This document shows, piece by piece, positions 209 through 18,546 of a stretch of 22,529 nt of DNA (position 1 is its first letter; each line of letters starts with the position of its first letter). The notes under the pieces were generated by a model. That model did no database searches. It saw only the letters and a program-made list of their open reading frames with translations, and had not been told where the DNA came from. The translations under genes were made by a program, and so were the position numbers. Origin of the DNA: a virus. The stretch covers positions 1 to 22,529 of the IMG/VR virus record IMGVR_UViG_3300033153_001843; one strand, 5' to 3'.

Positions 209-230
209 GGGTAGGGCTTCGGCTCTACCC
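209..230 (+). promoter_or_regulatory. Stem-loop with UUCG tetraloop
   Basis: Two 9-base arms (209-217 and 222-230) pair with a single G-U wobble around a C(UUCG)G loop, an exceptionally stable RNA tetraloop. It lies between the stop of the zinc-ribbon gene and the start of the next gene. No T-run follows on either strand, so it is not a standard intrinsic terminator. It may protect the 3' end of the upstream mRNA, separate two transcripts, or mask translation starts upstream of 246. Confidence 0.7.
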
Positions 231-245
231 ACAAAACAAAACGAA

Positions 246-425
246 ATGAGAATAATGGAAAAAGAAAGAAAGTTAACAGTCAAAGACCTAAAGACACTTC
301 ACCTACTGTGCGGCTCTTGGATACGTAGAAACGAGAGTAAAGACAATCGCAAAGAAAGAGTTCCTGAAATTAGGACTTTACAACACAAGTTGTTTTGGTT
401 ATTCAATGAGCGACTATCCCACTAA
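246..425 (+). CDS. Small hypothetical early protein (59 aa)
   Basis: The protein is short, basic and rich in Arg and Lys, with a middle segment LKTLHLLCGSWIRRNES and a C-terminus LFNERLSH. No family is recognised. An in-frame ATG at 201 would place the UUCG hairpin inside the gene. The start at 246 is preferred because it follows the A-rich leader (ACAAAACAAAACGAA) seen before other early genes; ATG 255 is a close alternative. Its stop lies inside the junction sequence CACTAAAAC that leads to the next gene at 436, so the two are probably on one transcript. Net positive charge would suit nucleic-acid binding, but that is only a guess. Confidence 0.55.
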   Translation: MRIMEKERKLTVKDLKTLHLLCGSWIRRNESKDNRKERVPEIRTLQHKLFWLFNERLSH

Positions 426-435
426 AACAAAAACA

Positions 436-666
436 ATGGAAGCGAGAACCATAAAACAAGTTAACAAGGTTATTCAGAAGGAAGTGGGTAATTACAATTT
501 AGTAAAAGGCGAAGGGTATTTTTACGTAACAAGCGAAGATTACGATTTATCTTTAAACCTTTCGGGTCTTTACACAACTTCAATTTACGTGTGCCATCTG
601 AACCAACAGTCTGTTGAAGCTTGGATAAAAGATGTAAGGGAAATAGTATTCGGCTCTAACAACTAA
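436..666 (+). CDS. Conserved-looking phage hypothetical protein (76 aa)
   Basis: A small soluble protein with the segment LVKGEGYFYV, a run of alternating polar and hydrophobic residues, then SIYVCHLNQQSVEAWIKDV. From memory this pattern (LVKGEGYFYF followed by a tSVYV..L..L..EQW motif) occurs in small hypothetical proteins of many phages, with no known function. It probably folds as a short beta-sheet plus a C-terminal helix. The start at 436 is chosen because it follows the conserved ACTAAAAC-type junction at 421-438; an upstream in-frame ATG at 406 lies inside the previous gene. It is followed 11 bases later by a tiny membrane protein gene. Confidence 0.7.
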   Translation: MEARTIKQVNKVIQKEVGNYNLVKGEGYFYVTSEDYDLSLNLSGLYTTSIYVCHLNQQSVEAWIKDVREIVFGSNN

Positions 667-677
667 AATAAAACGAA

Positions 678-767
678 ATGAAAACGATAACGAAACACTT
701 TGACACGATCTACGCAATACTAACGGTGGTATTGATAGCTATAGTAACACTTAACATTAAACTTTGA
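678..767 (+). CDS. Micro membrane protein (29 aa)
   Basis: ATG at 678 follows a junction sequence (662-680) like those before neighbouring genes and ends with TGA at 765-767. The product has a basic N-terminus (MKTITKHFD) and then about 17 hydrophobic residues from roughly residue 11 to 27 (IYAILTVVLIAIVTLNI), enough for one membrane span with the N-terminus inside. No family is recognised. Tiny inner-membrane proteins made early by phages can modify host membrane complexes, block superinfection or affect lysis timing; none of these can be claimed here. The gene fits exactly between its neighbours, 5 bases before the next ATG. Confidence 0.6.
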   Translation: MKTITKHFDTIYAILTVVLIAIVTLNIKL

Positions 768-772
768 TAGCA

Positions 773-928
773 ATGGAATTGAATTACGAAATAGATGTAA
801 AGACACGGAGAGGTAGTTACAGGACGTACAAGATTACCTTCAACGGAGAGCGACACTACGAGAACTGGTGCAATGCGATGGAGCAGAAGTACGGACACAA
901 GATAATAGGCGAAAGGGAAATAAAGTAA
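773..928 (+). CDS. Small hypothetical protein (51 aa)
   Basis: ATG at 773, TAA at 926-928. The product starts MELNYEIDVKTRRGSYRTYK and continues with ITFNGERHYENWCNAMEQKYG, so it looks like a short two- or three-stranded sheet followed by a helix. This pattern (a strand, a short loop with GERHYENW, then a helix ending in a YG turn) resembles many small phage proteins, but no named family is recognised. The gene fills the space between the micro membrane protein and the conserved dyad element at 930-966. Its reading frame is open over its full length and no better frame exists there. Confidence 0.65.
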   Translation: MELNYEIDVKTRRGSYRTYKITFNGERHYENWCNAMEQKYGHKIIGEREIK

Positions 929-929
929 T

Positions 930-966
930 TGTCATTTGAGCGACATTTTAATAGGACAGGAACACA
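930..966 (+). promoter_or_regulatory. Conserved intergenic dyad element, copy A
   Basis: TGTCA (930-934) and CGACA (941-945) form an imperfect inverted repeat with a 6-base spacer. It is followed by TTTTA and, 11 bases after the dyad, CAGGAACACA (957-966). The same arrangement recurs at 2007-2041, also directly after a stop codon. It could be an operator or promoter element, or a weak hairpin with a short U-run that pauses transcription. No good -7 box is seen here. Confidence 0.5.
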
Positions 967-994
967 GACATTTGAACAAACAAAAACGAAAGCA

Positions 995-1216
995 ATGGAA
1001 AACGTAACATTAAACAAGGTAGAGTTAGCATCGGACTTAGCTTCCGATAGGTTAGAGGCAGAGTTCGAGGGGCAAATTTATGATGACCCAACTGCGGGAA
1101 TTGCAGTCTACACGGACGAGGCTCAGGAAGTTTGGAACAAGTACTACGGAAGATACTTGGAATTGATTGAGAACTGCCAACAGTACTGCGAATCGAAAAA
1201 GGAATACGACATTTAA
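995..1216 (+). CDS. Acidic hypothetical protein (73 aa)
   Basis: A strongly acidic product: MENVTLNKVELASDLASDRL, then an Asp/Glu-rich middle, then a helix EAQEVWNKYYGRYLELIENC and a C-terminus with two Cys. No family is recognised. The start at 995 follows the A-rich leader ACAAAAACGAAAGCA; a TTG codon at 929 in the same frame would read through the regulatory dyad and is rejected. Small acidic phage proteins sometimes mimic DNA or inhibit host nucleases or polymerases, but the sequence gives no specific evidence for that. It is followed after 26 bases by the next gene through another ACTAAAAC junction. Confidence 0.65.
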   Translation: MENVTLNKVELASDLASDRLEAEFEGQIYDDPTAGIAVYTDEAQEVWNKYYGRYLELIENCQQYCESKKEYDI

Positions 1217-1242
1217 TTATAAACAACTAAAACGAAAACAAA

Positions 1243-1446
1243 ATGATTTACGAAACGATTGAAAACGGTAGATGCTTCTCAGGAGAAGTGTACAATGCAG
1301 AGGCTCCAACTGCGATAGTATTGGAGGGGTTAGAGTGCGAGGCTATTAGCTTCAGCAAGGTAAGAAAGGAACTTAACAAGGAGTTCAAGTTTTGTAGCCA
1401 CAAGGTGTTGGTAGAGTACCTAAGCAACTTAGATAATAACTATTAA
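1243..1446 (+). CDS. Hypothetical protein (67 aa)
   Basis: The product starts MIYETIENGRCFSGEVYNAE and has a C-terminal half with two likely helices (FSKVRKELNKEFKFCSHKVL). No family is recognised. ATG 1243 sits at the end of a copy of the ACTAAAAC junction (1226-1245), which supports this start. Codon use and orientation match the surrounding early genes. The gene ends with TAA 13 bases before the next start. Confidence 0.65.
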   Translation: MIYETIENGRCFSGEVYNAEAPTAIVLEGLECEAISFSKVRKELNKEFKFCSHKVLVEYLSNLDNNY

Positions 1447-1458
1447 AAGACAGGAACG

Positions 1459-1698
1459 ATGAAAACTTACAGTGAATATCAATTCCTAATCTTCAGTCAA
1501 ATATTCTACCTTCTACTTAGCGAGTATGAGCAAAAGATAGGAGACTTGAAACTTGAATACGACCTAAGCTATCCAGTATTGGTGGAGACACTGAAAGACT
1601 ACTTAGGATCCGATTATAACGACCCTGAGTTTAGCGAATACGACTGTATGGCTACCTATCTAAAAGAAAACATAAACACAATAGCAGAACAATTATGA
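1459..1698 (+). CDS. Hypothetical acidic protein (79 aa)
   Basis: The product starts MKTYSEYQFLIFSQIFYLLL and continues with acidic, Tyr-rich sequence; the N-terminal hydrophobic stretch is interrupted and looks like an amphipathic helix rather than a membrane span. No family is recognised. Unlike its neighbours the start has a recognisable Shine-Dalgarno-like AGGA three bases before ATG (GACAGGAACGATG). Its stop overlaps the next start by four bases (ATGA at 1695-1698), so translation of the two is likely coupled. Confidence 0.65.
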   Translation: MKTYSEYQFLIFSQIFYLLLSEYEQKIGDLKLEYDLSYPVLVETLKDYLGSDYNDPEFSEYDCMATYLKENINTIAEQL

Positions 1699-2000
1699 GA
1701 ACATTCAAAGACAAAATTATCAGAGCAGACATTACCTCCAGAGGAGGCGGTATCGAGATTGACCTTCAAGAGTTCGGACACAACGGTAGGATGACCGCAT
1801 ACCAAAACTACTTAGGCGGTGGTATGCTTGGAAGGGTAGCCAGTGATTGTAATATCGATAACTGGAAGGAGAACGATGAACTGGTGGAGATTGCATACGA
1901 ACTGCGACAATACTTCCACAGTGTAACAAACCCTGATGATAGTGATTGGGAGAGCGTATCGTTCGAGCAGAACCAAAAACTACCAATAAGTGCTTATTAA
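1695..2000 (+). CDS. Hypothetical protein (101 aa)
   Basis: The product starts MRTFKDKIIRADITSRGGGI and includes IDLQEFGHNGRMTAYQNYLGGGMLGRV, a Gly-rich strand-turn pattern, then an acidic helix ENDELVEIAYELRQYF. From memory, similar small phage proteins with a strand, then QNYLGGGM, then a helix exist, but no named family or function can be given. It overlaps the previous gene by ATGA. After its TAA comes the 97-base intergenic space that holds dyad copy B. Confidence 0.65.
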   Translation: MRTFKDKIIRADITSRGGGIEIDLQEFGHNGRMTAYQNYLGGGMLGRVASDCNIDNWKENDELVEIAYELRQYFHSVTNPDDSDWESVSFEQNQKLPISAY

Positions 2001-2006
2001 CGTATT

Positions 2007-2041
2007 TGTCAGGTAGATGACATTTTAGTGTCAGGAACACA
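2007..2041 (+). promoter_or_regulatory. Conserved intergenic dyad element, copy B
   Basis: TGTCA (2007-2011) and TGACA (2018-2022) form a perfect inverted repeat with a 6-base spacer. It is followed by TTTTA and then CAGGAACACA (2032-2041). Layout, spacing and the position just after a stop codon match copy A at 930-966. The remaining intergenic bases up to the ATG at 2098 are A-rich and end in an ACTAAAAC junction. A regulator-binding site or a weak pause hairpin are both possible. Confidence 0.55.
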
Positions 2042-2097
2042 ACTACTTTAGCTAACGAATTAAAACAACAAACATTAACAACTAAAACAAAAAGACA

Positions 2098-2280
2098 ATG
2101 CAAACGACAGAACTAATTTCAGAACGCAAGACAGAGTTGAGACACAAGGGTAAGCCAGTATTCGAGGTGGTACGTAGGTACTGCAAGAGAGGGTGGAGCC
2201 ACAAGGTAGCTACCATTACAGAACTATGTACTGTGTATGAGAAGGAAGGAGTAAGGTGCTACAGAAAGGTTTACTTTTAA
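2098..2280 (+). CDS. Small basic hypothetical protein (60 aa)
   Basis: The product is basic: MQTTELISERKTELRHKGKP, then FEVVRRYCKRGWSHKVATIT and a C-terminus CYRKVYF. It contains three Cys and several Arg/Lys clusters. No family is recognised. The start follows the junction at 2081-2100. It is the first gene after the dyad element copy B and so may begin a transcript. A basic 60-residue protein could bind nucleic acid, but no motif proves it. Confidence 0.65.
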   Translation: MQTTELISERKTELRHKGKPVFEVVRRYCKRGWSHKVATITELCTVYEKEGVRCYRKVYF

Positions 2281-2312
2281 CAGTCAGGAACATTAACACT
2301 AAAACAACAACA

Positions 2313-2516
2313 ATGGAAAACAAAATAAAATACGCCAAGAAATACCTATCAACAAGATTACTAAACGAAGTTGATGGGGTCACAAGACTATACATAGATA
2401 GTGGCAACCTTTATATTGAGTTTGAAAATGGAATGTGTGTTCAACTACACGATGACGAAATAGGATACCAAGCAGTCAACCATCTCGAAAGTGAGATTCA
2501 AGGGATATACAACTAA
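2313..2516 (+). CDS. Hypothetical protein (67 aa)
   Basis: The product starts MENKIKYAKKYLSTRLLNEV and contains a beta-rich centre (LYIDSGNLYIEFENGMCVQL) and a C-terminal helix (YQAVNHLESEIQGIYN). No family is recognised. The start at 2313 follows the junction at 2298-2315; an earlier in-frame ATG at 2256 lies inside the previous gene and is rejected. The stop codon is part of the next copy of the same junction. Confidence 0.65.
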   Translation: MENKIKYAKKYLSTRLLNEVDGVTRLYIDSGNLYIEFENGMCVQLHDDEIGYQAVNHLESEIQGIYN

Positions 2517-2527
2517 AACAATAAGCA

Positions 2528-2812
2528 ATGGAAAACTTAGAAAACAACAAACTGATAGCAGAATTTATGGGTTATGAAGCCTATGAATATAGAGGGCATA
2601 CAATGTTCATTTTTGATGAGGATAACCACCGAACAGAATTAGACCTACATTATCACACCTCTTGGGATTGGCTCATGCCAGTAGTAGAAGAGATTGACCA
2701 CTTGCAATTTGAAGAAGTGGTGGAAATAGAGGAAGGTCTGAAAACGAGGTCATTATCAGACACCTACAAATCAGTAGTAGAATTTATTAAGCAACAAAAC
2801 AAAAACAATTAG
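2528..2812 (+). CDS. Phage hypothetical protein with SWDWLMPVVEEI motif (94 aa)
   Basis: The product opens MENLENNKLIAEFMGYEAYE, continues with a strand pair, then YHTSWDWLMPVVEEIDHLQF and a C-terminal helix ending KQQNKNN. The motif NNKLIAEFMG together with YH.SWDWLMPVVE.I is familiar from small proteins in many Bacteroidota phages, some assigned to the phage ABA-sandwich type fold; this assignment is from memory and not checked. No biochemical function is known. The start follows a junction copy (2512-2530). It ends with TAG, one of the few TAG stops here. Confidence 0.75.
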   Translation: MENLENNKLIAEFMGYEAYEYRGHTMFIFDEDNHRTELDLHYHTSWDWLMPVVEEIDHLQFEEVVEIEEGLKTRSLSDTYKSVVEFIKQQNKNN

Positions 2813-2818
2813 AAAGAA

Positions 2819-3058
2819 ATGGAAATTTTAAGAGGATACACAGACACAGAACTTCGGGCTGAACTTGCCCGAAGAGGGTACTACACCGAGAACCTATGGA
2901 CAGCAGAAGATGTGAAATACCACTGTTCAATAGAGGAGGCGTTGATAGACGTTCAATCTTTGATACTCGATAAAGACAATCATAAGGACGGATGTTTTAA
3001 AGAGTTTCCATTAGTGTTGAGTATAATTAAGATGGCGTTGAACTCGAAAAAGAATTAA
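2819..3058 (+). CDS. Phage hypothetical protein with ELARRGYYTENLW motif (79 aa)
   Basis: The N-terminus reads MEILRGYTDTELRAELARRG, followed by YYTENLWTAEDV. The pattern 'tDtEL..El.rRGYyTenLW..eDV' recurs in small phage proteins of unknown function (recognised from memory). The first helix resembles a SAP-like or LEM-like two-helix start, but the protein is too short to assign. The C-terminus ALNSKKN resembles the ends of the genes at 3344 and 4064, because all three are encoded by a shared junction sequence. The start is 6 bases after the previous TAG. Confidence 0.7.
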   Translation: MEILRGYTDTELRAELARRGYYTENLWTAEDVKYHCSIEEALIDVQSLILDKDNHKDGCFKEFPLVLSIIKMALNSKKN

Positions 3059-3074
3059 ACCAAAAGCAAATAAG

Positions 3075-3344
3075 ATGAAAACAGCACTACAAGAATTGAT
3101 TGAGCGTCTTGAAGAACGGAAAATACCCTTATCCACATCAGATGGAGAGAAGTTTGTGTTTGATTACTGCATAGCTAAAGTAACCGAACTACTCGAAAAG
3201 GAGCGGGAAGCGGCTGAGAAAGCATTCAACCAAGCAAGAAAGCAAACTTCAATTTTGGGAGAAAAAGACGTTCAAATGACAGACTACCTTATTTCGCCCA
3301 AGTATAAGACTTTTGAAGATTATTGGAACTCAAAAAATCACTAA
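3075..3344 (+). CDS. Helical hypothetical protein (89 aa)
   Basis: The product is almost entirely helical and charged: MKTALQELIERLEERKIPLS, then a region VTELLEKEREAAEKAFNQAR with heptad spacing that suggests a coiled coil (about residues 30-60), then a C-terminal YWNSKNH. No family is recognised. The last codons, the stop and the following leader form a 29-base sequence repeated exactly at 4046-4074. The start follows a TAAACC...AAATAAG type junction. Confidence 0.65.
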   Translation: MKTALQELIERLEERKIPLSTSDGEKFVFDYCIAKVTELLEKEREAAEKAFNQARKQTSILGEKDVQMTDYLISPKYKTFEDYWNSKNH

Positions 3345-3354
3345 ACCAAAACAA
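3326..3354 (+). repeat. Gene-junction direct repeat, copy 1
   Basis: Twenty-nine bases covering the last codons (NSKNH), the stop and the A-rich leader between the genes ending at 3344 and starting at 3356. The identical 29 bases occur at 4046-4074 at the next-but-one gene junction. In this copy the leader is 4 bases shorter (ATAA missing before GATGAAAC). Related, less exact copies are at about 3039-3077, 3691-3713, 7206-7230 and 7616-7637. Confidence 0.85.
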
Positions 3355-3355
3355 G

Positions 3356-3709
3356 ATGAAACTTATAGAAAAAGAAGAATTATTGCCAACGCACTACACA
3401 GAAGTTGGTGAGCCAAGTTACACAGGTAAAGGCAACCATAGTGTAATTCAACTCGAAGAAATTGCAGAACAATACAAAGAACTCGTTCACCAACTAAGAT
3501 TAAGAGAACAAGCTATTTTAAATAAATTTTCTATAGCTATTGTTAGCGAGAGTGATTTCCCAAAGGAGAGGGAGGTTGAAGAGAGGTGTCGGGAAGTTTT
3601 TGAGTTAGGTGCGTCAGCGTTCCAAGAATGCTTGAACCCTCACACCCTTGAATTTGACCACGAAACATTCAAGCGTTTAAAAGAAGAAGTAATAAACCAA
3701 AACAAATAA
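3356..3709 (+). CDS. Hypothetical protein (117 aa)
   Basis: The product starts MKLIEKEELLPTHYTEVGEP, has a long charged helix (about residues 30-55) and ends with a second helix FKRLKEEVINQNK. No family is recognised. ATG 3356 follows the short form of the junction repeat; an upstream ATG at 3323 lies inside the previous gene and is rejected. The gene ends at 3709, two bases before the next ATG, and its stop is part of another junction copy. Confidence 0.65.
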   Translation: MKLIEKEELLPTHYTEVGEPSYTGKGNHSVIQLEEIAEQYKELVHQLRLREQAILNKFSIAIVSESDFPKEREVEERCREVFELGASAFQECLNPHTLEFDHETFKRLKEEVINQNK

Positions 3710-3710
3710 G

Positions 3711-4064
3711 ATGAAACGATTTACTAAAGGTGAGTTTAAGCTGATTGAAAGACATTATTTGAAGTTCAAGCTATTTGGAAAGGAGTTCTTTATTTGGAAC
3801 ACTTCACCAAAGCAAGTATTAGAACACGTTACGGAAGTGAACCATGTAAAAGACTTTCACACTTGGAGGTTACCTAACGATAAACCCCAACCCCAAGAGA
3901 ACGGACTTCGTGAGGCGGCTGAAATTGTAGAGAAGTTAATTGAAGCAAGTGAGTGGATGGTTTCGGTAAAACCGATGTCTCCAAGAGAGAAAGAGAAACT
4001 TTACCATGAGCAATCTATTGTGATAGCAAAGGCAAAAGAATGGTTGAACTCAAAAAATCACTAA
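3711..4064 (+). CDS. Hypothetical protein (117 aa)
   Basis: The N-terminal half (MKRFTKGEFKLIERHYLKFK through FIWNTSPKQVLEHV) is beta-rich and aromatic. The C-terminal half is helical (LREAAEIVEKLIEASEWMV) and ends IAKAKEWLNSKNH. That tail resembles the ends of several Bacteroidota phage proteins and is encoded by the junction repeat at 4046-4074. No function is known. The two halves may be separate modules joined by recombination, given the repeated junction, but this is inference. Confidence 0.65.
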   Translation: MKRFTKGEFKLIERHYLKFKLFGKEFFIWNTSPKQVLEHVTEVNHVKDFHTWRLPNDKPQPQENGLREAAEIVEKLIEASEWMVSVKPMSPREKEKLYHEQSIVIAKAKEWLNSKNH

Positions 4065-4074
4065 ACCAAAACAA
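4046..4074 (+). repeat. Gene-junction direct repeat, copy 2
   Basis: Exact 29-base match to 3326-3354, again spanning the NSKNH codons, stop codon and leader. It is followed by ATAAGATGAAAC, where copy 1 has only GATGAAAC. The copies flank a unit of two genes (3356-3709 and 3711-4064), so recombination between them would delete or swap that unit. Confidence 0.85.
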
Positions 4075-4079
4075 ATAAG

Positions 4080-4190
4080 ATGAAACCACTTGAATACATA
4101 ACACTCGCACTCTACGTGATAGCGTTCAGGGTAGTGGATAAGATAGGAGAATACAAACAAAGAAAAGTAACAGAAAAATGGAACAACTAA
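4080..4190 (+). CDS. Micro protein with one hydrophobic helix (36 aa)
   Basis: ATG 4080 follows the junction repeat exactly and TAA is at 4188-4190. The product starts MKPLEYITLALYVIAFRVVD and has a basic C-terminus (KIGEYKQRKVTEKWNN). Residues 6-19 are hydrophobic with one Arg after them, so it is either a short membrane span or an amphipathic membrane-surface helix. It overlaps the next gene by 13 bases in another frame. No family is recognised. Confidence 0.6.
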   Translation: MKPLEYITLALYVIAFRVVDKIGEYKQRKVTEKWNN

Positions 4191-4525
4191 AATTGTCAAT
4201 CGAGACATCTCAAGATAAAGCAGTAACTGAGTTTATCAGCAGACCGTTCAAGGGGAGTCTTATAAAGGTCTACTTAATCTCAGAGGTAGAGGCAAACAGA
4301 AGAAGGAAGAGGTTACTTAAGGCAATAGAAAATAAAGAAGAAGATTCACGTCAAGAGTCTTACTTTATTGATGAGTACTGTTTCTGTAGGTGCGTAGGAA
4401 TCACTGTAGATTACAATAGGGTTAAACCAAGAGAGGTTGCTATTGTAAAGAGATTGGACTCGGACTTCATTACAGATGATGTGCATTACTTTCTTGATAA
4501 ACAAAAAGTTAAATTCCTGAAATGA
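4178..4525 (+). CDS. Hypothetical protein (115 aa)
   Basis: The product starts MEQLKLSIETSQDKAVTEFI, has a basic helix EANRRRKRLLKAIENKEEDS and a Cys-containing centre (DEYCFCRCVGITVDY), then strands. The C.C.C cluster might bind metal but lacks a second clear pair. No family is recognised. It overlaps the preceding micro gene by 13 bases, and its stop overlaps the next start as ATGA (4522-4525), so the three are probably translated together. Confidence 0.65.
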   Translation: MEQLKLSIETSQDKAVTEFISRPFKGSLIKVYLISEVEANRRRKRLLKAIENKEEDSRQESYFIDEYCFCRCVGITVDYNRVKPREVAIVKRLDSDFITDDVHYFLDKQKVKFLK

Positions 4526-4602
4526 AATACCTTAGACTGATAGCAAACATATTTGTGATGGCGATGTGCCTGGCGATAATCTTAATAAGATATTCGAGAT
4601 GA
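4522..4602 (+). CDS. Micro membrane protein (26 aa)
   Basis: ATG 4522 overlaps the stop of the previous gene (ATGA) and its own TGA (4600-4602) overlaps the next ATG (4599). The product starts MKYLRLIANIFVMAMCLAII and ends LIRYSR. It is one hydrophobic segment with positive residues on both sides. Two consecutive ATGA overlaps make this tiny frame convincing as translated sequence even though 26 residues is very short. Function unknown. Confidence 0.55.
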   Translation: MKYLRLIANIFVMAMCLAIILIRYSR

Positions 4603-4793
4603 GGAGAGCAACATTCCACCTGACCAGTAAAGACAGAAAGGAGTACGGTATAGCAGAGTTCAAGAGCAAGGATCATTTCCTTGAGTGGAGGATGCTGATG
4701 ATGAAGAGAGGCTACAGAATCGATCTAAATTGGTTGGACGGATACAATGGAATAGACGGTAAATACGATAAACAAAACGATGATGAAAAATAG
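4599..4793 (+). CDS. Hypothetical protein (64 aa)
   Basis: The product starts MRRATFHLTSKDRKEYGIAE and continues with HFLEWRMLMMKRGYRIDLNW and an acidic C-terminus. It looks like a short mixed alpha/beta protein. The start at 4599 is chosen because it overlaps the stop of the micro membrane gene; a GTG at 4566 in the same frame would lie within that gene. It overlaps the following gene by 14 bases. No family is recognised. Confidence 0.6.
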   Translation: MRRATFHLTSKDRKEYGIAEFKSKDHFLEWRMLMMKRGYRIDLNWLDGYNGIDGKYDKQNDDEK

Positions 4794-5148
4794 ATACATA
4801 ATATACAGATTAGGGGAGGACGGAGAGTACAATCAGGTTGATTGGGTAATGCACACAGAGGGAGATGACGATGGCTTTGAGATAGAGTTACGGTTGACGA
4901 TAGAGGGAGTGGCTTTCGATAGAGATATGGAAAGGATGGATAACGAGGACTTCTTCTTTCTTGACCCGATAGACGTAGAGTATATAAAGAAGTCTCTCTA
5001 CACGGTAATTGAGACTGAGTACGCAGTTACTGGAGACTACGACTACTGGTACATAATAAGAGAAAAAGCTACCGCAAGTGAAATAGTCAGGCACTTACAG
5101 ACACAAGCGGAAGAGATGCAACAAGTAAGAACAATAATGGGCTTCTAA
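4780..5148 (+). CDS. Acidic hypothetical protein (122 aa)
   Basis: A strongly acidic protein starting MMKNRYIIYRLGEDGEYNQV, rich in Asp, Glu and Tyr, with beta-strand-like segments up to about residue 100 and a C-terminal helix ending EEMQQVRTIMGF. Either of two adjacent ATGs (4780 or 4783) could start it. No family is recognised. The codons for AEEMQQ are part of an 18-base direct repeat whose second copy lies just after the stop codon. Confidence 0.65.
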   Translation: MMKNRYIIYRLGEDGEYNQVDWVMHTEGDDDGFEIELRLTIEGVAFDRDMERMDNEDFFFLDPIDVEYIKKSLYTVIETEYAVTGDYDYWYIIREKATASEIVRHLQTQAEEMQQVRTIMGF

Positions 5149-5167
5149 TGCGGAAGAGATGCAACAA
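5107..5167 (+). repeat. 18-base direct repeat pair around a gene end
   Basis: The sequence GCGGAAGAGATGCAACAA occurs at 5107-5124, inside the last codons of the acidic gene, and again at 5150-5167, immediately after its stop. The two copies are 43 bases apart. This looks like a small duplication or a remnant of a replaced gene end, and it lies just upstream of the recombinase cassette. Confidence 0.85.
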
Positions 5168-5191
5168 CAAATAAACAATTCAATATAAACG

Positions 5192-5488
5192 ATGAGGACA
5201 AAGGAACAACAAGAGCAGTACATCGAGAACCTTAAGAAAAGGTTGAACAAGGACTACCACGTAGTCATCGAGCCATACATGAAGAACTTAGACGGAGAGT
5301 ATAATTGGTTCTTCAACTGGAAGGATGGTGGTTACAACACCATCTGGGCGAAGTCTGAGGCGGATGCTGTCAGGAAGGTCAAGCAGAAGTTCAGTATGGG
5401 ATCCAAGATAGACAGGTCTACTCTCAGGAAGCAGACACGTAGTGGTGCTACGGAGACAGATAGAATGGGATACCTTATGACCTGTTGA
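5192..5488 (+). CDS. Hypothetical protein upstream of the recombinase (98 aa)
   Basis: The product starts MRTKEQQEQYIENLKKRLNK, followed by a strand pair around YNWFFNWKDGGYNTIWAKSE, a helix ADAVRKVKQKF and a basic tail ending RMGYLMTC. No named family is recognised. It ends one base before the recombinase ATG at 5490, so the two genes are almost certainly co-translated. Small basic proteins beside serine recombinases sometimes act as directionality factors; position alone raises that possibility here and nothing in the sequence confirms it. Confidence 0.65.
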   Translation: MRTKEQQEQYIENLKKRLNKDYHVVIEPYMKNLDGEYNWFFNWKDGGYNTIWAKSEADAVRKVKQKFSMGSKIDRSTLRKQTRSGATETDRMGYLMTC

Positions 5489-5489
5489 T

Positions 5490-6182
5490 ATGGATAGATA
5501 CGTAGCATACTATAGGGTTTCCACTAAGAGACAGGGGGAGTCAGGTCTTGGTCTTGAGGCTCAGGTTAGAATGGTTGAAGGTTACGCCAGGAACGGTGTC
5601 ATCATCAAGGAGTTCACTGAGAAGGAGACAGGAACATCGAAACGTGAACGACCTATACTCGCAGAGGCTATCGAGATGTGTAAGGAGACAGGAGCCAAGC
5701 TACTGATAGCCAAGTTAGACAGACTTGCGAGGGACGTACACTTCATATCGAGCCTGAGTAGAACTGGTGTTGACTTCGTTTGTTGCGATAATCCAAACGC
5801 TAACAAGCTGACTATCAATCTATTAGCCTCTGTTGCGGAGAACGAGGCTGAGGCTATATCTTCAAGAACAAAGGCAGGTCTTGGCTCTATCAAGGAGAGG
5901 ATAAAGAAAGATGGTAGCTACGTATCGAGGTCTGGTCGAATGATAACATCTCTTGGGAATCCTGGAAACCTGACAGACGAGGGTAGGAGAAAGGGCGGAG
6001 ATGTAATCAGTCAGAGATTCAAGAACAATCGCAATACGAGGATGGCACGACCATACGCAATGGAGCTGAGAGGCAGAGGTCTGGAGCTTAAAGAGATAGC
6101 TGAAAAGCTGAATAGTAACGGATTCATCACGGCTACTGGCAGACAGTTCAACAAGTATAGCGTACATAAACTGATAAAGTAA
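5490..6182 (+). CDS. Small serine recombinase (resolvase/invertase type)
   Basis: A DNA recombinase of the resolvase/invertase superfamily (230 aa). The start MDRYVAYYRVSTKRQ carries the catalytic serine at residue 11 in the typical YxRVST motif. The block KLDRLARDVHF (about residues 75-86) is the conserved arginine region of the catalytic domain, and residues about 100-130 (NLLASVAENEAEAISSRTKA) match the long E helix. The C-terminal 50 residues (ELKEIAEKLNSNGFITATGR) form a helix-turn-helix of the 'Recombinase' type. The length fits small serine recombinases and lacks the zinc and coiled-coil regions of large serine integrases. It could resolve multimers, invert a segment or integrate the phage; no crossover sites are recognised. 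Its stop overlaps the next ATG (TAATG). Confidence 0.93.
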   Translation: MDRYVAYYRVSTKRQGESGLGLEAQVRMVEGYARNGVIIKEFTEKETGTSKRERPILAEAIEMCKETGAKLLIAKLDRLARDVHFISSLSRTGVDFVCCDNPNANKLTINLLASVAENEAEAISSRTKAGLGSIKERIKKDGSYVSRSGRMITSLGNPGNLTDEGRRKGGDVISQRFKNNRNTRMARPYAMELRGRGLELKEIAEKLNSNGFITATGRQFNKYSVHKLIK

Positions 6183-6397
6183 TGTGGCGGATATTTGGAA
6201 TTACATTGTTTGTGGCTCTGTCCTGTTACTTTCTACAAGGATACGACAGGAACATAAACACCTTCTCCAGGAGGGTTTCCATACACTTCAGATACAGGTG
6301 GATGAGCAGAAGATGGAGGATTTTGGACAGGGTTTTATTCAACGTACTGATGATTTTTTTAATAGTAACATACATAAAAACAGTAATGACATGGTAA
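6182..6397 (+). CDS. Two-span membrane protein (71 aa)
   Basis: ATG 6182 overlaps the recombinase stop (TAATG). The product has two hydrophobic helices, residues about 4-19 (IFGITLFVALSCYFLQ) and 51-66 (RVLFNVLMIFLIVTYI), separated by a very basic loop (RRVSIHFRYRWMSRRWR), which predicts both ends in the periplasm or a tight cytoplasmic loop. No family is recognised. A longer overlapping frame with a GTG start at 6184 is rejected in favour of this one because this frame encodes clear membrane segments and fits both neighbours. It overlaps the next gene by 7 bases. Confidence 0.65.
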   Translation: MWRIFGITLFVALSCYFLQGYDRNINTFSRRVSIHFRYRWMSRRWRILDRVLFNVLMIFLIVTYIKTVMTW

Positions 6398-6594
6398 GAG
6401 AAAAAGAACTGATAGAGATGGGGTTCGAGAGGGATTACCCTCTGTACAAGATGGGAGACATAACCCTGTACGCATACGATGACGATGACAGGCTCGATGT
6501 GTACTATATGATAGGAAAGCTTCCGCACGACAATTCAATAAGAGTAAGAACAATAGAACAACTAAAACAACTGATAGATGAAAGGAAAGGTTAA
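6391..6594 (+). CDS. Hypothetical protein (67 aa)
   Basis: The product starts MVREKELIEMGFERDYPLYK and has two strands plus a C-terminal helix (RTIEQLKQLIDERKG). The frame is open back to a GTG at 6184, but ATG 6391 is preferred since it overlaps the stop of the membrane-protein gene by only 7 bases, in line with the packing here. It overlaps the next start by 17 bases. No family is recognised. Confidence 0.65.
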   Translation: MVREKELIEMGFERDYPLYKMGDITLYAYDDDDRLDVYYMIGKLPHDNSIRVRTIEQLKQLIDERKG

Positions 6595-6796
6595 GGTAAT
6601 AGTAAGGGTTTCGGAAGAACACCCTGACGCTGAGATATTCAAATGCCTGGGAGGAAAGGTAGTGATGAAGGTTAAGGACTACGACTACGCATACGAGTTT
6701 GCGATGACAATGCTTAACTTGCGTGAATCTGAAATGTTTGAACACGGAGACTTAATGTTCTTCAATAAGGGAATACTAATAGAGATAGATAGATGA
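6578..6796 (+). CDS. Hypothetical protein (72 aa)
   Basis: The product starts MKGKVKVIVRVSEEHPDAEI and looks alpha/beta, with a helix DYAYEFAMTMLNLRESEMF in the second half. No family is recognised. It overlaps both neighbours (17 bases upstream; ATGA at 6793-6796 downstream), which indicates a translationally coupled run from the recombinase onward. Confidence 0.65.
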   Translation: MKGKVKVIVRVSEEHPDAEIFKCLGGKVVMKVKDYDYAYEFAMTMLNLRESEMFEHGDLMFFNKGILIEIDR

Positions 6797-7209
6797 AAAA
6801 GGAAGAGAAGGAAGCGATTATTGACATACTTACAAAGTGGAAGGATATGATAGGTGTTGATGGCAGGAGCGTTGACATATTGATAGACAGAGTTAATCAG
6901 ATATACATTCCAGAGCCGATAGACATACAGGAAGTAGATGTCATCAAGGCAGACATAGTGAATATGTGTAATCAGATAAAGTATGATGTCAAGCAGAACA
7001 AAGTTCGTGGGATTGATAACACTACTAAAAGGATGGCAATCTACAAGGCTTCTGAGATAAAGTATGGCAGAACTTCAAGTATGGAGTGTGCGGTTAAAGA
7101 GTTCTTCGACAAGGATAGAACCACACTACTCTATTGGAGAAATAAATCAGATGACCTTATCGATGTAAAAGACCCTATGTTCGTAAGGTATGTTAACGAG
7201 TTAATTTAA
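6793..7209 (+). CDS. DnaA domain IV-like DNA-binding protein (138 aa)
   Basis: The N-terminal 50 residues are helical and acidic. The rest resembles the C-terminal DNA-binding domain of the bacterial replication initiator DnaA: IVNMCNQIKYDVKQNKVRGI, then KRMAIYKASEIKYGRTSSME and EFFDKDRTTLLYWRNK (residues 104-118), which parallels the DnaA signature 'fGgRDHtTVlha'. Stand-alone domain IV proteins are known from phages and may bind DnaA-box-like sites or compete with host DnaA. No ATPase domain is present. The exact signature residues differ (KDRTT in place of RDHTT), so the match is by pattern only. It overlaps the previous gene as ATGA and is followed by an ACC-type junction. Confidence 0.55.
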   Translation: MKKEEKEAIIDILTKWKDMIGVDGRSVDILIDRVNQIYIPEPIDIQEVDVIKADIVNMCNQIKYDVKQNKVRGIDNTTKRMAIYKASEIKYGRTSSMECAVKEFFDKDRTTLLYWRNKSDDLIDVKDPMFVRYVNELI

Positions 7210-7227
7210 ACCAAAACAAATAGCGAT

Positions 7228-7638
7228 ATGAAAAACAAAATAGAAACAATATTGGACGAAGCAAGGTACAATGGGCTACCTACACACATAGTAGCTGAAC
7301 AGCTATTGGATTTATTTAGTGTTAATCAACAACAGAACGAGCAGAAATCACAGAGCAGCGAGGTTGATTATCAAAAGATGTTTGCTAATTGCAAGTTGCC
7401 GAATGAACAACTACAGAGCAGTAACATTGATATGTCGGATTGGCATTTTTGCAAAGTTTACGGATTCAGAGAAGGCGTTGACAAATGTTCAGGATGCGAC
7501 CAAGACAAGGTGAGGGAGGCGTTGCAAGACTGTAAGGAAACACTCGGAATATTGATAAACATGGGGGTTGATTCAGACACGGTTAAGAACTCCTACGAGA
7601 ACGCAGAAAAAGCATTGAACCAAAAACAAGTAAGATGA
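7228..7638 (+). CDS. Cys-containing hypothetical protein (136 aa)
   Basis: The N-terminus is a helical pair (MKNKIETILDEARYNGLPTH, then VAEQLLDLFSV), followed by a Gln/Ser-rich linker (about residues 32-47), a central part with Cys residues including KCSGC, and a C-terminal helical domain (KVREALQDCKETLGILINMG) that resembles a short domain found at the ends of many phage hypothetical proteins. The modular make-up suggests shuffling. The stop overlaps the next ATG (7635). The start follows a TAAACCAAAACAAATAG leader. Confidence 0.65.
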   Translation: MKNKIETILDEARYNGLPTHIVAEQLLDLFSVNQQQNEQKSQSSEVDYQKMFANCKLPNEQLQSSNIDMSDWHFCKVYGFREGVDKCSGCDQDKVREALQDCKETLGILINMGVDSDTVKNSYENAEKALNQKQVR

Positions 7639-12987: not shown

Positions 12988-13569
12988 ATGGAAAAGTTAG
13001 TAAAATTACAGAAGGAACTGAAGGCTCCCAAGAACCAAAAGAACAAGTTTGGGGGCTACAATTATCGTAACTGCGAGGACATTCTTGAGGCGGTAAAACC
13101 ACTACTTGACAAGCACGGACTTGTGCTTAATATAACAGACTCTCTTGGAGAACTGTGTGGGATACCATACACCGAGGCTACTGCAAGTGTGTACGACCCT
13201 AAGAAGCCAGATATCGTGGTTTCATCTAAGGCACAGGCAGGTATAGACCCTAACCAAAAGGGGATGAGTCTTGGACAATGTTTCGGTGCGTCATCATCGT
13301 ATGCTCGTAAGTATGCGTTGAATGGTCTTCTTCTGATTGACGATAACAAGGATCCTGACGTAACCAACACTCACACCAAGACAACTACAAGAAAGACAAC
13401 TACTGTAGAGAAGAAGGCAGGAGCGAAGAAAAAGGTAACCGCAGGAACCGCTGAGTACAACAAGCTACTCAAATGGATCGAGTCACCTAAAGGCTCAATA
13501 GAAAAGGCACTTGAGATGTACGACATCGACAAGGCTACAGAAACCATAATCCGTAAATCAATTAAATAA
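12988..13569 (+). CDS. erf: ERF-family single-strand annealing protein (193 aa)
   Basis: A recombinase that anneals complementary single strands produced by the neighbouring exonuclease. Residues 1-125 carry the ERF superfamily pattern: KNKFGGYNYRNCEDILEAVK (lysine-rich entry, then YxY and helix), KHGLVLNI, a beta-rich centre ending in GMSLGQCFGASSSYARKYAL (the conserved G...G...SYaRKYaL block) and DDNKDPD. The C-terminal 65 residues are a Lys/Thr-rich linker followed by a short helical domain, as is common for contact with SSB. The start at 12988 gives full family length. It precedes the SSB gene by 7 bases. Confidence 0.9.
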   Translation: MEKLVKLQKELKAPKNQKNKFGGYNYRNCEDILEAVKPLLDKHGLVLNITDSLGELCGIPYTEATASVYDPKKPDIVVSSKAQAGIDPNQKGMSLGQCFGASSSYARKYALNGLLLIDDNKDPDVTNTHTKTTTRKTTTVEKKAGAKKKVTAGTAEYNKLLKWIESPKGSIEKALEMYDIDKATETIIRKSIK

Positions 13570-13576
13570 CAATAAG

Positions 13577-13969
13577 ATGAGTTCAGTGAACAAGGTAATT
13601 CTTCTGGGAAACATAGGTAAAGACCCAGAGGTTAGAGAAACAAAGGCAGGTAATGTTGCCAACATGGTAATGGCTACGTCAGAAAGATACACTGACAAAA
13701 GTGGTCAAAAACAAGAGAAAACAGAATGGCACAATCTTGTTGTATTTGGTAAACTTGCAGATATAGTTGCTAAATACGTAAAGAAAGGTGACAAACTGTA
13801 CGTTGAAGGGAGTATTACCACAAGGAAGTGGGAAGACAAAGAAGGTAACACCCGATACACAACAGAGGTAAAGGTCCGTGACCTTACCATGCTTGGGGGT
13901 GGAGAGAAGAAAGCAACTCAGCCAGCAGCAGTAGCAGTTGGTGAGGGAGAAGATGACTTGCCATTCTAA
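13577..13969 (+). CDS. ssb: Single-stranded DNA-binding protein (130 aa)
   Basis: Binds and protects single-stranded DNA at the fork and during recombination. The OB fold is evident: MSSVNKVILLGNIGKDPEVR, then TEWHNLVVFGKLADIVAKYV, GDKLYVEGSITTRKWEDKEG and TEVKVRDLTMLGG, in the order and spacing of bacterial SSBs. A short Ala/Gln linker leads to the acidic tip GEDDLPF, which in SSBs recruits partner proteins. Length is slightly below host SSBs because of the short linker. It is the last gene of the replication-recombination module and is followed 22 bases later by an intrinsic terminator. Confidence 0.95.
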   Translation: MSSVNKVILLGNIGKDPEVRETKAGNVANMVMATSERYTDKSGQKQEKTEWHNLVVFGKLADIVAKYVKKGDKLYVEGSITTRKWEDKEGNTRYTTEVKVRDLTMLGGGEKKATQPAAVAVGEGEDDLPF

Positions 13970-16917: not shown

Positions 16918-18546
16918 TTAAACTCCTCCACCATCTGCTAATCCTCCCCATTTCAACTCTAAGCTATCGTGAGCAGTTTCAGCCGCTCCACCTAATGTGT
17001 AGGTAGACGCTCCAAAGTTTGCGTTACCACCACTATATGCCATCGTGCCTTGAGCATCCCACGCAATACACAGAGCATCATAGTTAGCCGTAGATAAAGA
17101 CGGTGATGTATTCTGCATCATACCTTGTAGGTTAGTTGCTTGACTAACTGTCCAACCGCTAATATCTTGGTCAAACGCATCTGCATCGTAAAGGATGTAG
17201 AGAAAGTCTAACACGCTACTTGTATCCCAACTACCTATAGGTTGATTGAATGACTTATTATTCTGAAACATCCTTGCCATTTTAGTTGCTGACGATGTAT
17301 CCCAACTACTGATGTTTTGGTTGTAGTTGCTGTCTCTAAATGTTGACTCAAAATTGGTAACATTGGATGTATTCCAACTATTTAGAGAATATGTTAGGCT
17401 ATCAGTTCCAGCAAATGTGTAATCCATTCTGGTTACACTTGTGGTTGTCCAACCATCAATATCTTGATTGAAGTTATCACAATTTTGGAATGTTCCTTTC
17501 ATATTTGTTACGCTACTTACATCCCAATTACCTATTGTGTCGCTACCTCCATTATTAAACGCTCTTGCCGCATAAAACATTGTTTCCAATGTTGTGGCAG
17601 ATGACATATCCCACGACCCAATATTCTGATTGAAGATGGTACAATTGTAAAAGATATTTTTGAAATTGCTAACGCTACTTACATCCCAAGATGATAAATC
17701 CGCATTAAAGGCAATGCAATTTGTAAAAGCAAGTTGTAAATTAGTAGACCCCGTAGTATTCCAAGCATCAATACCAATTCCTGTAAAAGCTGAACAACTA
17801 TGGAACGTTCCGTTTAATCCTGAACTAACCCTCCACCCCTCAACGCTACCATTAAATGTACTGCAATTTTTAAAAGTGTCTCTGAAATTTGTTACACCAC
17901 TTGTATCCCAACTACTTAAATCTTGATTGAATGTCGGGCAACTTTGAAGCATCGCACGTAAATTCGTTACCCCGCTATGCACCCATCCACTTATATTGCC
18001 GTTGAATAACGCACAACCGTTAAACGCTTCTTGCATATTGGTTACGCTACTCGTATCCCATCCACTAAAATCTTGTGTTGTTAAAGCATCGCAATTTCTG
18101 AATATAGAATAGAAAGATGTAGTGGTAATAGTTGGCACATCTGTAGCCGTTACATCCAAGTTTTGACAATAATCAAATTGTCTATCTGATGAAGAGATTG
18201 TAAAGAATCCCCAATTCTGAATGTCGATGAACTTTAGTTTATCTCCACTATTAGCAACTCTCCAACCTTCAAACGTATCTCCGCTTATTGTGATGGTGTA
18301 TGTACCACCACTTAGGTAGGTATGCTGTCTGTTTGCGTAGGATAATGCACTTGTATCGCCATCGCCCCAATCAATAGTGCCATCGTATGTTCCTCCAGAT
18401 TCTAATGGTAAGATAATAGTATCTGACGCTGATCCTGCCTGAGTAGTATCAACTTCAATAACGAAGTCAGGGTTAACACCACCGCCACCGCTACCAAAGG
18501 CTTGGTTTCTAAAAGTAGTTCCTATGCCATTGTGTATTCCAGGCAT
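16918..18546 (-). CDS. DUF285/BspA-like repeat tail fibre, putative receptor-binding protein (542 aa)
   Basis: Residues about 27-90 resemble a PKD-type beta sandwich (TIDWGDGDTSALSY ... HTYLSGGTYTITISG). From about residue 155 to 480 there are some 13 repeats of about 25 residues with the pattern 'isgWdtSsvTnm...F.nc..FNqd', the DUF285 (surface protein, BspA-like leucine-rich-type) repeat; one repeat near residue 230 is shortened. The C-terminal 60 residues (NYDALCIAWDAQ, then WGGLADGGG) match the cap that ends such proteins in Bacteroidota. These repeats form curved solenoids used for adhesion. In a virion gene block directly before the lysis genes, it is the best candidate for the host-receptor protein. 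No retroelement for targeted variation is present. Confidence 0.85.
   Translation of the reverse strand: MPGIHNGIGTTFRNQAFGSGGGGVNPDFVIEVDTTQAGSASDTIILPLESGGTYDGTIDWGDGDTSALSYANRQHTYLSGGTYTITISGDTFEGWRVANSGDKLKFIDIQNWGFFTISSSDRQFDYCQNLDVTATDVPTITTTSFYSIFRNCDALTTQDFSGWDTSSVTNMQEAFNGCALFNGNISGWVHSGVTNLRAMLQSCPTFNQDLSSWDTSGVTNFRDTFKNCSTFNGSVEGWRVSSGLNGTFHSCSAFTGIGIDAWNTTGSTNLQLAFTNCIAFNADLSSWDVSSVSNFKNIFYNCTIFNQNIGSWDMSSATTLETMFYAARAFNNGGSDTIGNWDVSSVTNMKGTFQNCDNFNQDIDGWTTTSVTRMDYTFAGTDSLTYSLNSWNTSNVTNFESTFRDSNYNQNISSWDTSSATKMARMFQNNKSFNQPIGSWDTSSVLDFLYILYDADAFDQDISGWTVSQATNLQGMMQNTSPSLSTANYDALCIAWDAQGTMAYSGGNANFGASTYTLGGAAETAHDSLELKWGGLADGGGV

Follow-up and report, generated by a model that had tools for sequence, protein, structure and literature searches.

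The window analysed here is a 22.5-kb virus record (IMG/VR IMGVR_UViG_3300033153_001843, positions 1 to 22,529). Its left 8 kb holds approximately 30 small genes, all on one strand and nearly all without a family, and two families of short repeated sequences stand directly before the start codons of a number of them. Comparison with related viruses leads us to propose that these repeats are reused start leaders that probably also serve as homology patches for the gain, loss, and exchange of whole genes. The comparison set comprised 35 loci and contigs with early regions.

Read directly, the repeats are where the original prediction had placed them, with small corrections. Family I consists of ACTAAAAC, an A-rich stretch, and ATG. 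It is exact at five of the six proposed places (421-438, 1226-1245, 2081-2100, 2298-2315, and 2512-2530), while the copy at 662-680 differs and reads ACTAAAAT. A related leader, CACAAAACAAAACGAA directly followed by ATGA at 230-249, had been overlooked. Family II is indeed present before the starts at 3075, 3356, 3711, 4080, 7228, and 7635, but three of these copies are looser, being shorter before 3356, ending in ATAGCGAT before 7228, and reading TGAACCAAAAACAAGTAAG before 7635. The reported 29-base identity between 3326-3354 and 4046-4074 is correct, as are the protein tails ALNSKKN (g2819), YWNSKNH (g3075), and WLNSKNH (g3711). The copies are as follows.

421-435, plus strand: family I leader of g436, exact motif
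1226-1242, plus strand: family I leader of g1243, exact motif; site of a cassette difference among L100, L088, and L021
2081-2097, plus strand: family I leader of g2098, exact motif; single where L100 has two copies
2298-2312, plus strand: family I leader of g2313, exact motif
2512-2527, plus strand: family I leader of g2528, exact motif
3039-3074, plus strand: extended family II unit (tail codons LNSKKN, stop, leader) before g3075
3325-3355, plus strand: extended family II unit (tail WNSKNH) before g3356
3693-3710, plus strand: family II leader of g3711, with stops in three frames
4044-4079, plus strand: extended family II unit (tail LNSKNH) before g4080; its leader, 4062-4079, has stops in all frames
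7207-7227, plus strand: family II leader of g7228
7616-7634, plus strand: family II-like leader of g7635

The repetition exceeds what an A-rich start context would give. The family I core ACTAAAAC occurs six times in the window, against a mean of 1.4 and a maximum of 4 in 100 shuffles; the sixth copy (6561) lies within a reading frame and is probably a coincidence. Leader pairs with an exact shared stretch of at least 8, 10, and 12 bases number 112, 35, and 14, respectively, whereas the corresponding maxima in 300 column shuffles, which preserve base composition position by position ahead of the start codon, were 78, 16, and 4. Leader repetition is also clear in the relatives L021, L095, L088, L097, L099, L100, L101, and L103. 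A third leader family, AACAACTAAAAACAAATAGAAAGC directly before ATG, recurs in L021, L095, L097, L099, and L100.

The leaders are partly coding. The family II sequence TAAACCAAAACAAATAAG, directly followed by ATGA, has stops in all three frames, and the window uses all of them: g3711 ends at the first TAA, g3356 reads through to a terminal INQNK, and g7228 reads through to LNQKQVR. The shared tails of unrelated-looking proteins are thus largely translations of the leader or of the codons immediately 5' of it. The extended unit, TTGAACTC-AAAAA-..-TAAACCAAAACAA.. with the tail LNSK[KN][HN], occurs in the window, in L038/L039, and in the phage L408, and no relatives of the window genes tested are present in the stretch of L408 that was fetched; the copy before g4080 recurs in L038/L039 and L408 after other genes. 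A blastn search of the unit against named phages gave chance-level matches only. Orthologues of g7635 have other leaders and other upstream genes. The genes carrying the shared tails had been described as unrelated; the downstream genes are non-paralogous, but g3711 and the genes of L038 and L408 have a weak C-terminal similarity (E 0.005-0.06). Since the sequence is retained in different reading frames, selection or exchange seems to act on the nucleic acid. A separate observation in L038 is a 295-aa protein (3976-4863) that contains the module MKTREQAEARA twice and resembles fused small cassettes.

The proposed role of the repeats as translation starts lacking a Shine-Dalgarno (SD) sequence agrees with the start context of Bacteroidota. 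In the window's group, the frequency of A before start codons is 0.79 at -12/-11, 0.76 at -7, and 0.66 at -3; A is enriched in these leaders at -13 to -11, -7, and -3, and G constitutes 1-8% from -20 to -11. In Flavobacterium johnsoniae, ribosome profiling and mutants demonstrated that A at -3, -6, -12, and -13 raises translation (PMC6847099). Three leaders were folded and are practically unstructured (0 to -0.2 kcal/mol). Hence, the leaders have what is expected of Bacteroidota-type SD-free starts, namely, enrichment of A near -13/-11, -6, and -3, no SD, and little structure. They appear to be translation-start leaders in repeated use, each of which would drive initiation at the next gene. 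The host itself is a Bacteroidota-type bacterium, placed at that level only: named-phage relatives of the primase are mostly from Flavobacterium and Cellulophaga, and distant relatives of the primase are found in Bacteroidota genomes.

Gene content between the leaders varies among relatives, as the original prediction had anticipated, and edges of shared DNA cluster at gene starts. Raw breakpoint positions were not taken as proof of mechanism, since any mechanism would give whole-gene events that end at starts, and identical edges recur in related contigs. Among 46 non-redundant gain or loss events, 33 have both edges at gene starts, with approximately 2.6 expected at random, and in 20 of those 33 the matching blocks overlap by at least 10 bases in the shorter genome, meaning that a single leader there matches a pair in the longer genome. 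The leaders flanking an extra gene are more alike than nearby pairs from the same genome (0.63 vs. 0.51; 4/10000), and for the 17 events with true intergenic leaders only, the flanking similarity is 0.743 vs. 0.542 (0/10000). The comparison between genomes was likewise filtered to true leaders, replacing an unfiltered version that mixed in overlapping genes. Among non-redundant true leaders, similarity falls from 0.84 where both neighbouring genes are retained to 0.69 where the upstream gene alone is shared, 0.64 where the downstream gene alone is shared, and 0.54 where both differ. The two intermediate values lie above the background of 0.54, so that a swap on either side leaves part of the leader similarity in place.

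Two places in the window illustrate such events. The cassette at the first is bounded by a leader with an adjacent hairpin and by a partial copy of both.

209-230, plus strand: stable hairpin with a UUCG loop, directly 5' of the first leader (-17 kcal/mol, z -4.8)
231-245, plus strand: leader ACAAAACAAAACGAA before the gene at 246, left flank of the cassette g246+g436
649-677, plus strand: second, partial copy of a hairpin half and leader (TTCGGCTCTAACAACTAAAATAAAACGAA) before g678, right flank of the same cassette

In L095 and L100, a single hairpin-leader is joined directly to the orthologue of g678, and the cassette g246+g436 is absent; in the window, two genes (246-666) stand between the hairpin-leader and g678; the event spans 246-677. 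The 5' part of the right copy encodes the last codons of g436 (tail FGSNN). Local alignment of 196-267 with 627-695 scores 56, against a maximum of 48 in 1000 shuffles, and the 22 hairpin bases together with the leader are found before different genes in related phages. The hairpin has no T-run after it and is not an obvious terminator. The second case is at g2098, where L100 has two near-identical leaders (22-nt identity 0.95) around an extra cassette and the matching blocks overlap by 31 nt at the single leader of the window.

These data suggest the following scheme. Each leader follows or contains the stop codon of one small early gene and would give the next gene an unstructured, A-rich, G-poor, SD-free start. 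A leader present in many places would provide 15-40 bases of near-identity, sometimes extended by the last codons of the upstream gene or by a hairpin. Two leaders of the same genome, or of different phages, could then recombine, which would delete, insert, or exchange whole genes and leave a working stop-start junction. At the level of sequence comparison, four parts of this scheme are established: the leaders repeat more than start context explains, they lie at starts, they are read through in several reading frames, and similar pairs of them surround gained or lost cassettes. Also established is the occurrence, in other viruses, of the same genes and leader in different orders. That leader homology directs the crossover is our interpretation, as is the suggestion that the phage's own exonuclease, ERF, and single-strand DNA-binding (SSB) proteins may perform it. 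Genes for all three are present in the window, and ERF-type proteins of other phages recombine short, diverged homology (PMC3945230).

11854-12969, plus strand: YqaJ/RecE-type recombination exonuclease (PF09588 1.1e-19, phrog_434 5e-54)
12988-13569, plus strand: ERF single-strand annealing protein (PF04404 3.6e-39, phrog_155 1.5e-40)
13577-13969, plus strand: single-strand DNA-binding protein (PF00436 3.2e-35)

Several observations weigh against the proposed linker role. The junctions had been thought more conserved than the genes, and this did not hold: leader identity is 0.72, against 0.92 and 0.61 for the adjacent coding sequences (n = 11), and leaders diverge like third codon positions (0.72 vs. 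0.71; n = 11, this group). Hence the greater conservation of boundaries than of genes that characterizes boundary sequences of mosaic phages is not seen in this group. In the closest relative, L086, which is 99.5% identical to the window with one cassette different, the edges of the swap are codon 14 of g3075 on the left and AG/ATG on the right, and the leader itself was replaced.

3117-3353, plus strand: segment swapped in L086 for an unrelated 84-nt segment, family II leader included

Further, L015, L016, and L034 are mosaic, yet leader repetition in them is weak or absent. The surviving whole-gene events would end at gene starts anyway, BLAST can extend matches through A-rich sequence, and only the similarity of flanking leaders, with 17 events after strict filtering, speaks to mechanism. 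The gene caller was home-made. Of the idea that leaders link cassettes, what stands is that similar leaders flank gained and lost genes, but the leader is not the fixed boundary in every swap, as L086 demonstrates; leaders are at best preferred patches, not fixed borders.

Other differences were noted at the L086 locus. The first 14 codons (MKTALQELIERLE) are common to two otherwise different proteins (window 3075-3116, L086 753-794), indicating that swaps also occur inside small genes. An indel of 15 nt distinguishes the two versions of g3356 (window 3565-3580, L086 1087-1113), and the longer L086 version matches 27 nt of the window g3075 (3182-3208), as if copied from the neighbour gene.

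Family II is a less strict relative of a leader that is nearly invariant in viruses, TAAACCAAAACAAAG directly followed by ATGA. The concern that the motifs are merely a generic context common before host genes was answered by 295 Bacteroidia genomes, in which the family II core gave 38 matches vs. 26 for the reversed control; family I was below its own control (149 genomes). Since a shorter motif and its control were both saturated in viral DNA, we used the 20-mer TAAACCAAAACAAAGATGAA, which was found in 72 viral DNA stretches vs. 3 for a dinucleotide-matched control. In loci holding the 20-mer, a looser motif has 178 sites, vs. 1 and 0 for permuted motifs; 125 protein families lie downstream of these sites, exactly AAG precedes ATG at 147 of them, and the SD-like fraction in loci with this leader is 0.06. 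At the 78 sites of the 20-mer, the upstream gene stops at the TAA of the leader in 29 and reads through to a terminal KPKQR in 17. In whole contigs, the copies share a strand in every record but one and mostly form one or a few short clusters; a 242-kb virus, for example, has 17 within 5.2 kb. Where at least two of these viruses share a gene that carries the leader, its neighbours differ from one virus to the next. In these virus-wide arrays, identity is 0.88 for the leader vs. 0.82 for coding sequence, the leader being higher in 9 of 15 pairs. L093, from the window's own group, also has the consensus leader. The motif was not found in the isolate phages JQ (whole genome), phi38:1, and phi14:2 (first 50 kb each), and leader repetition in these three is weak or none. 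We tentatively suggest, as an idea with a modest chance of being right, that the exact viral leader could be a mobile stop-start tag spread across many different viruses of SD-free hosts, recognised by a specific factor in infection and, through its repetition, making early regions exchangeable arrays of one-gene cassettes.

The precision of the virus-wide form is also an argument for a regulatory tag, in which the near-invariant leader would be the target of an RNA-binding protein, an initiation factor, or an early-gene regulator of phage or host, with recombination as a by-product. Both AAG before ATG at most sites and the rarity of the matched variant go far beyond what start context needs, the copies are clustered on one strand, and the unexplained start-associated sequences (SAS) of cluster K mycobacteriophages (PMC3203893) provide a parallel. 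On the other hand, families I and II differ and vary between relatives, so that no single target is kept in the group, and no candidate binding protein was identified. We consider this explanation rather unlikely.

Alternatively, the leaders might be alike only via A-rich SD-free starts, with illegitimate, non-homologous joins selected at gene ends. The start profile is as in Flavobacterium (PMC6847099), conservation of the leaders does not exceed that of the genes, and the swap in L086 made no use of the leader. However, leader sharing exceeds that in context-keeping column shuffles, a leader of the same dinucleotide content is 24 times rarer in viral DNA, leaders around gained or lost cassettes are unusually alike, and the motif is at chance in host genomes, all of which makes this explanation unlikely.

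It is improbable that the shared tails and leaders are remnants of recently duplicated gene ends, rather than linkers: the weak C-terminal similarity among g3711 and the L038 and L408 genes and the 27 nt of g3075 coding sequence that recur in g3356 of L086 would fit, but the downstream genes are non-paralogous, the leader is read in several frames, and similarity begins sharply a few codons 5' of the stop. Site-specific exchange by a serine recombinase acting on the leaders is very improbable, as the leaders have variable length and lack the dyad symmetry and fixed core of resolvase sites, and the edges are scattered across about 40 bases, even though the resolvase-type gene is kept in most relatives reaching the region.

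5490-6182: serine recombinase, resolvase type, in variable surroundings; no other site-specific recombinase was identified in the scanned window proteins

By function, the repeats of the window resemble the promoter early stem-loops (PeSLs) of T4-type phages and the boundary sequences proposed for lambdoid phages, and by position, the cluster K SAS (PMC3203893). As presented in PMC4503421 (citing Arbiol 2010 and Comeau 2014), PeSLs are repeated intergenic regulatory sequences between small accessory genes, and, like the leaders, they are proposed to mediate gene shuffling between related phages. In the same account, a PeSL combines an early promoter with a stem-loop, whereas the window leaders are unfolded start leaders without a recognised promoter, and only the 209-245 unit joins a hairpin to a leader. 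Lambdoid boundary sequences are, similarly, short shared sequences at the edges of exchangeable modules (PMC3029335), which the annealing recombinases of phages are believed to use (PMC3945230). Short similarity was found here at both edges of modules that one genome has and another lacks or has replaced, with the exception of L086. Unlike those sequences, the boundary in the window is a start leader repeated many times per genome, and this allows gain and loss within a genome in addition to exchange between genomes.

The SAS, too, are short repeats that directly precede the start codons of some genes; they are more specific than translation requires, and their function is unknown (PMC3203893). 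However, they are 13 bp long, contain an SD core (AGGAG), and precede the same gene family across genomes (PMC3203893), whereas the window leader shares their position, has no SD core, and precedes many different genes. The SD-free start context of Bacteroidota (PMC6847099, PMC3155529) is likewise A-rich before ATG, but it is statistical, while in the window near-identical sequences of 15-40 nt recur. Integron gene-cassette arrays, which have a folded attC and an integron integrase, are a poor match, as the leaders are unstructured and the recombinase identified is of the serine type.

Whether phage mosaicism arises via short shared boundary sequences or via random joins is debated (PMC3945230, PMC3029335). 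Here the boundary is a defined, repeated, and countable sequence with an evident primary job, making the linker idea testable by recoding. In addition, the near-invariant viral leader, whose looser form is at chance in the 295 Bacteroidia genomes, marks small early genes in SD-free viruses and helps to locate their true starts.

The right part of the window encodes, besides the recombination proteins, a replication-initiation protein and a primase-DnaB helicase. A megablast search of the whole window against named phages gave no match, searches of the small genes against protein families were uninformative, and no tRNA or Rfam family was found in the window. The two longest intergenic gaps contain an operator-like inverted repeat, TTGTCA-N5/6-TGACATTTTA (930-945 and 2007-2022), followed by GACAGGAAC or GTCAGGAAC. 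It occurs nearly letter for letter in L021, L088, L090, L097, L101, and L103, with two to three copies per phage, and is apparently better conserved than the leaders. Finally, a DUF285 repeat protein with four domain matches is encoded on the minus strand at 16918-18546.

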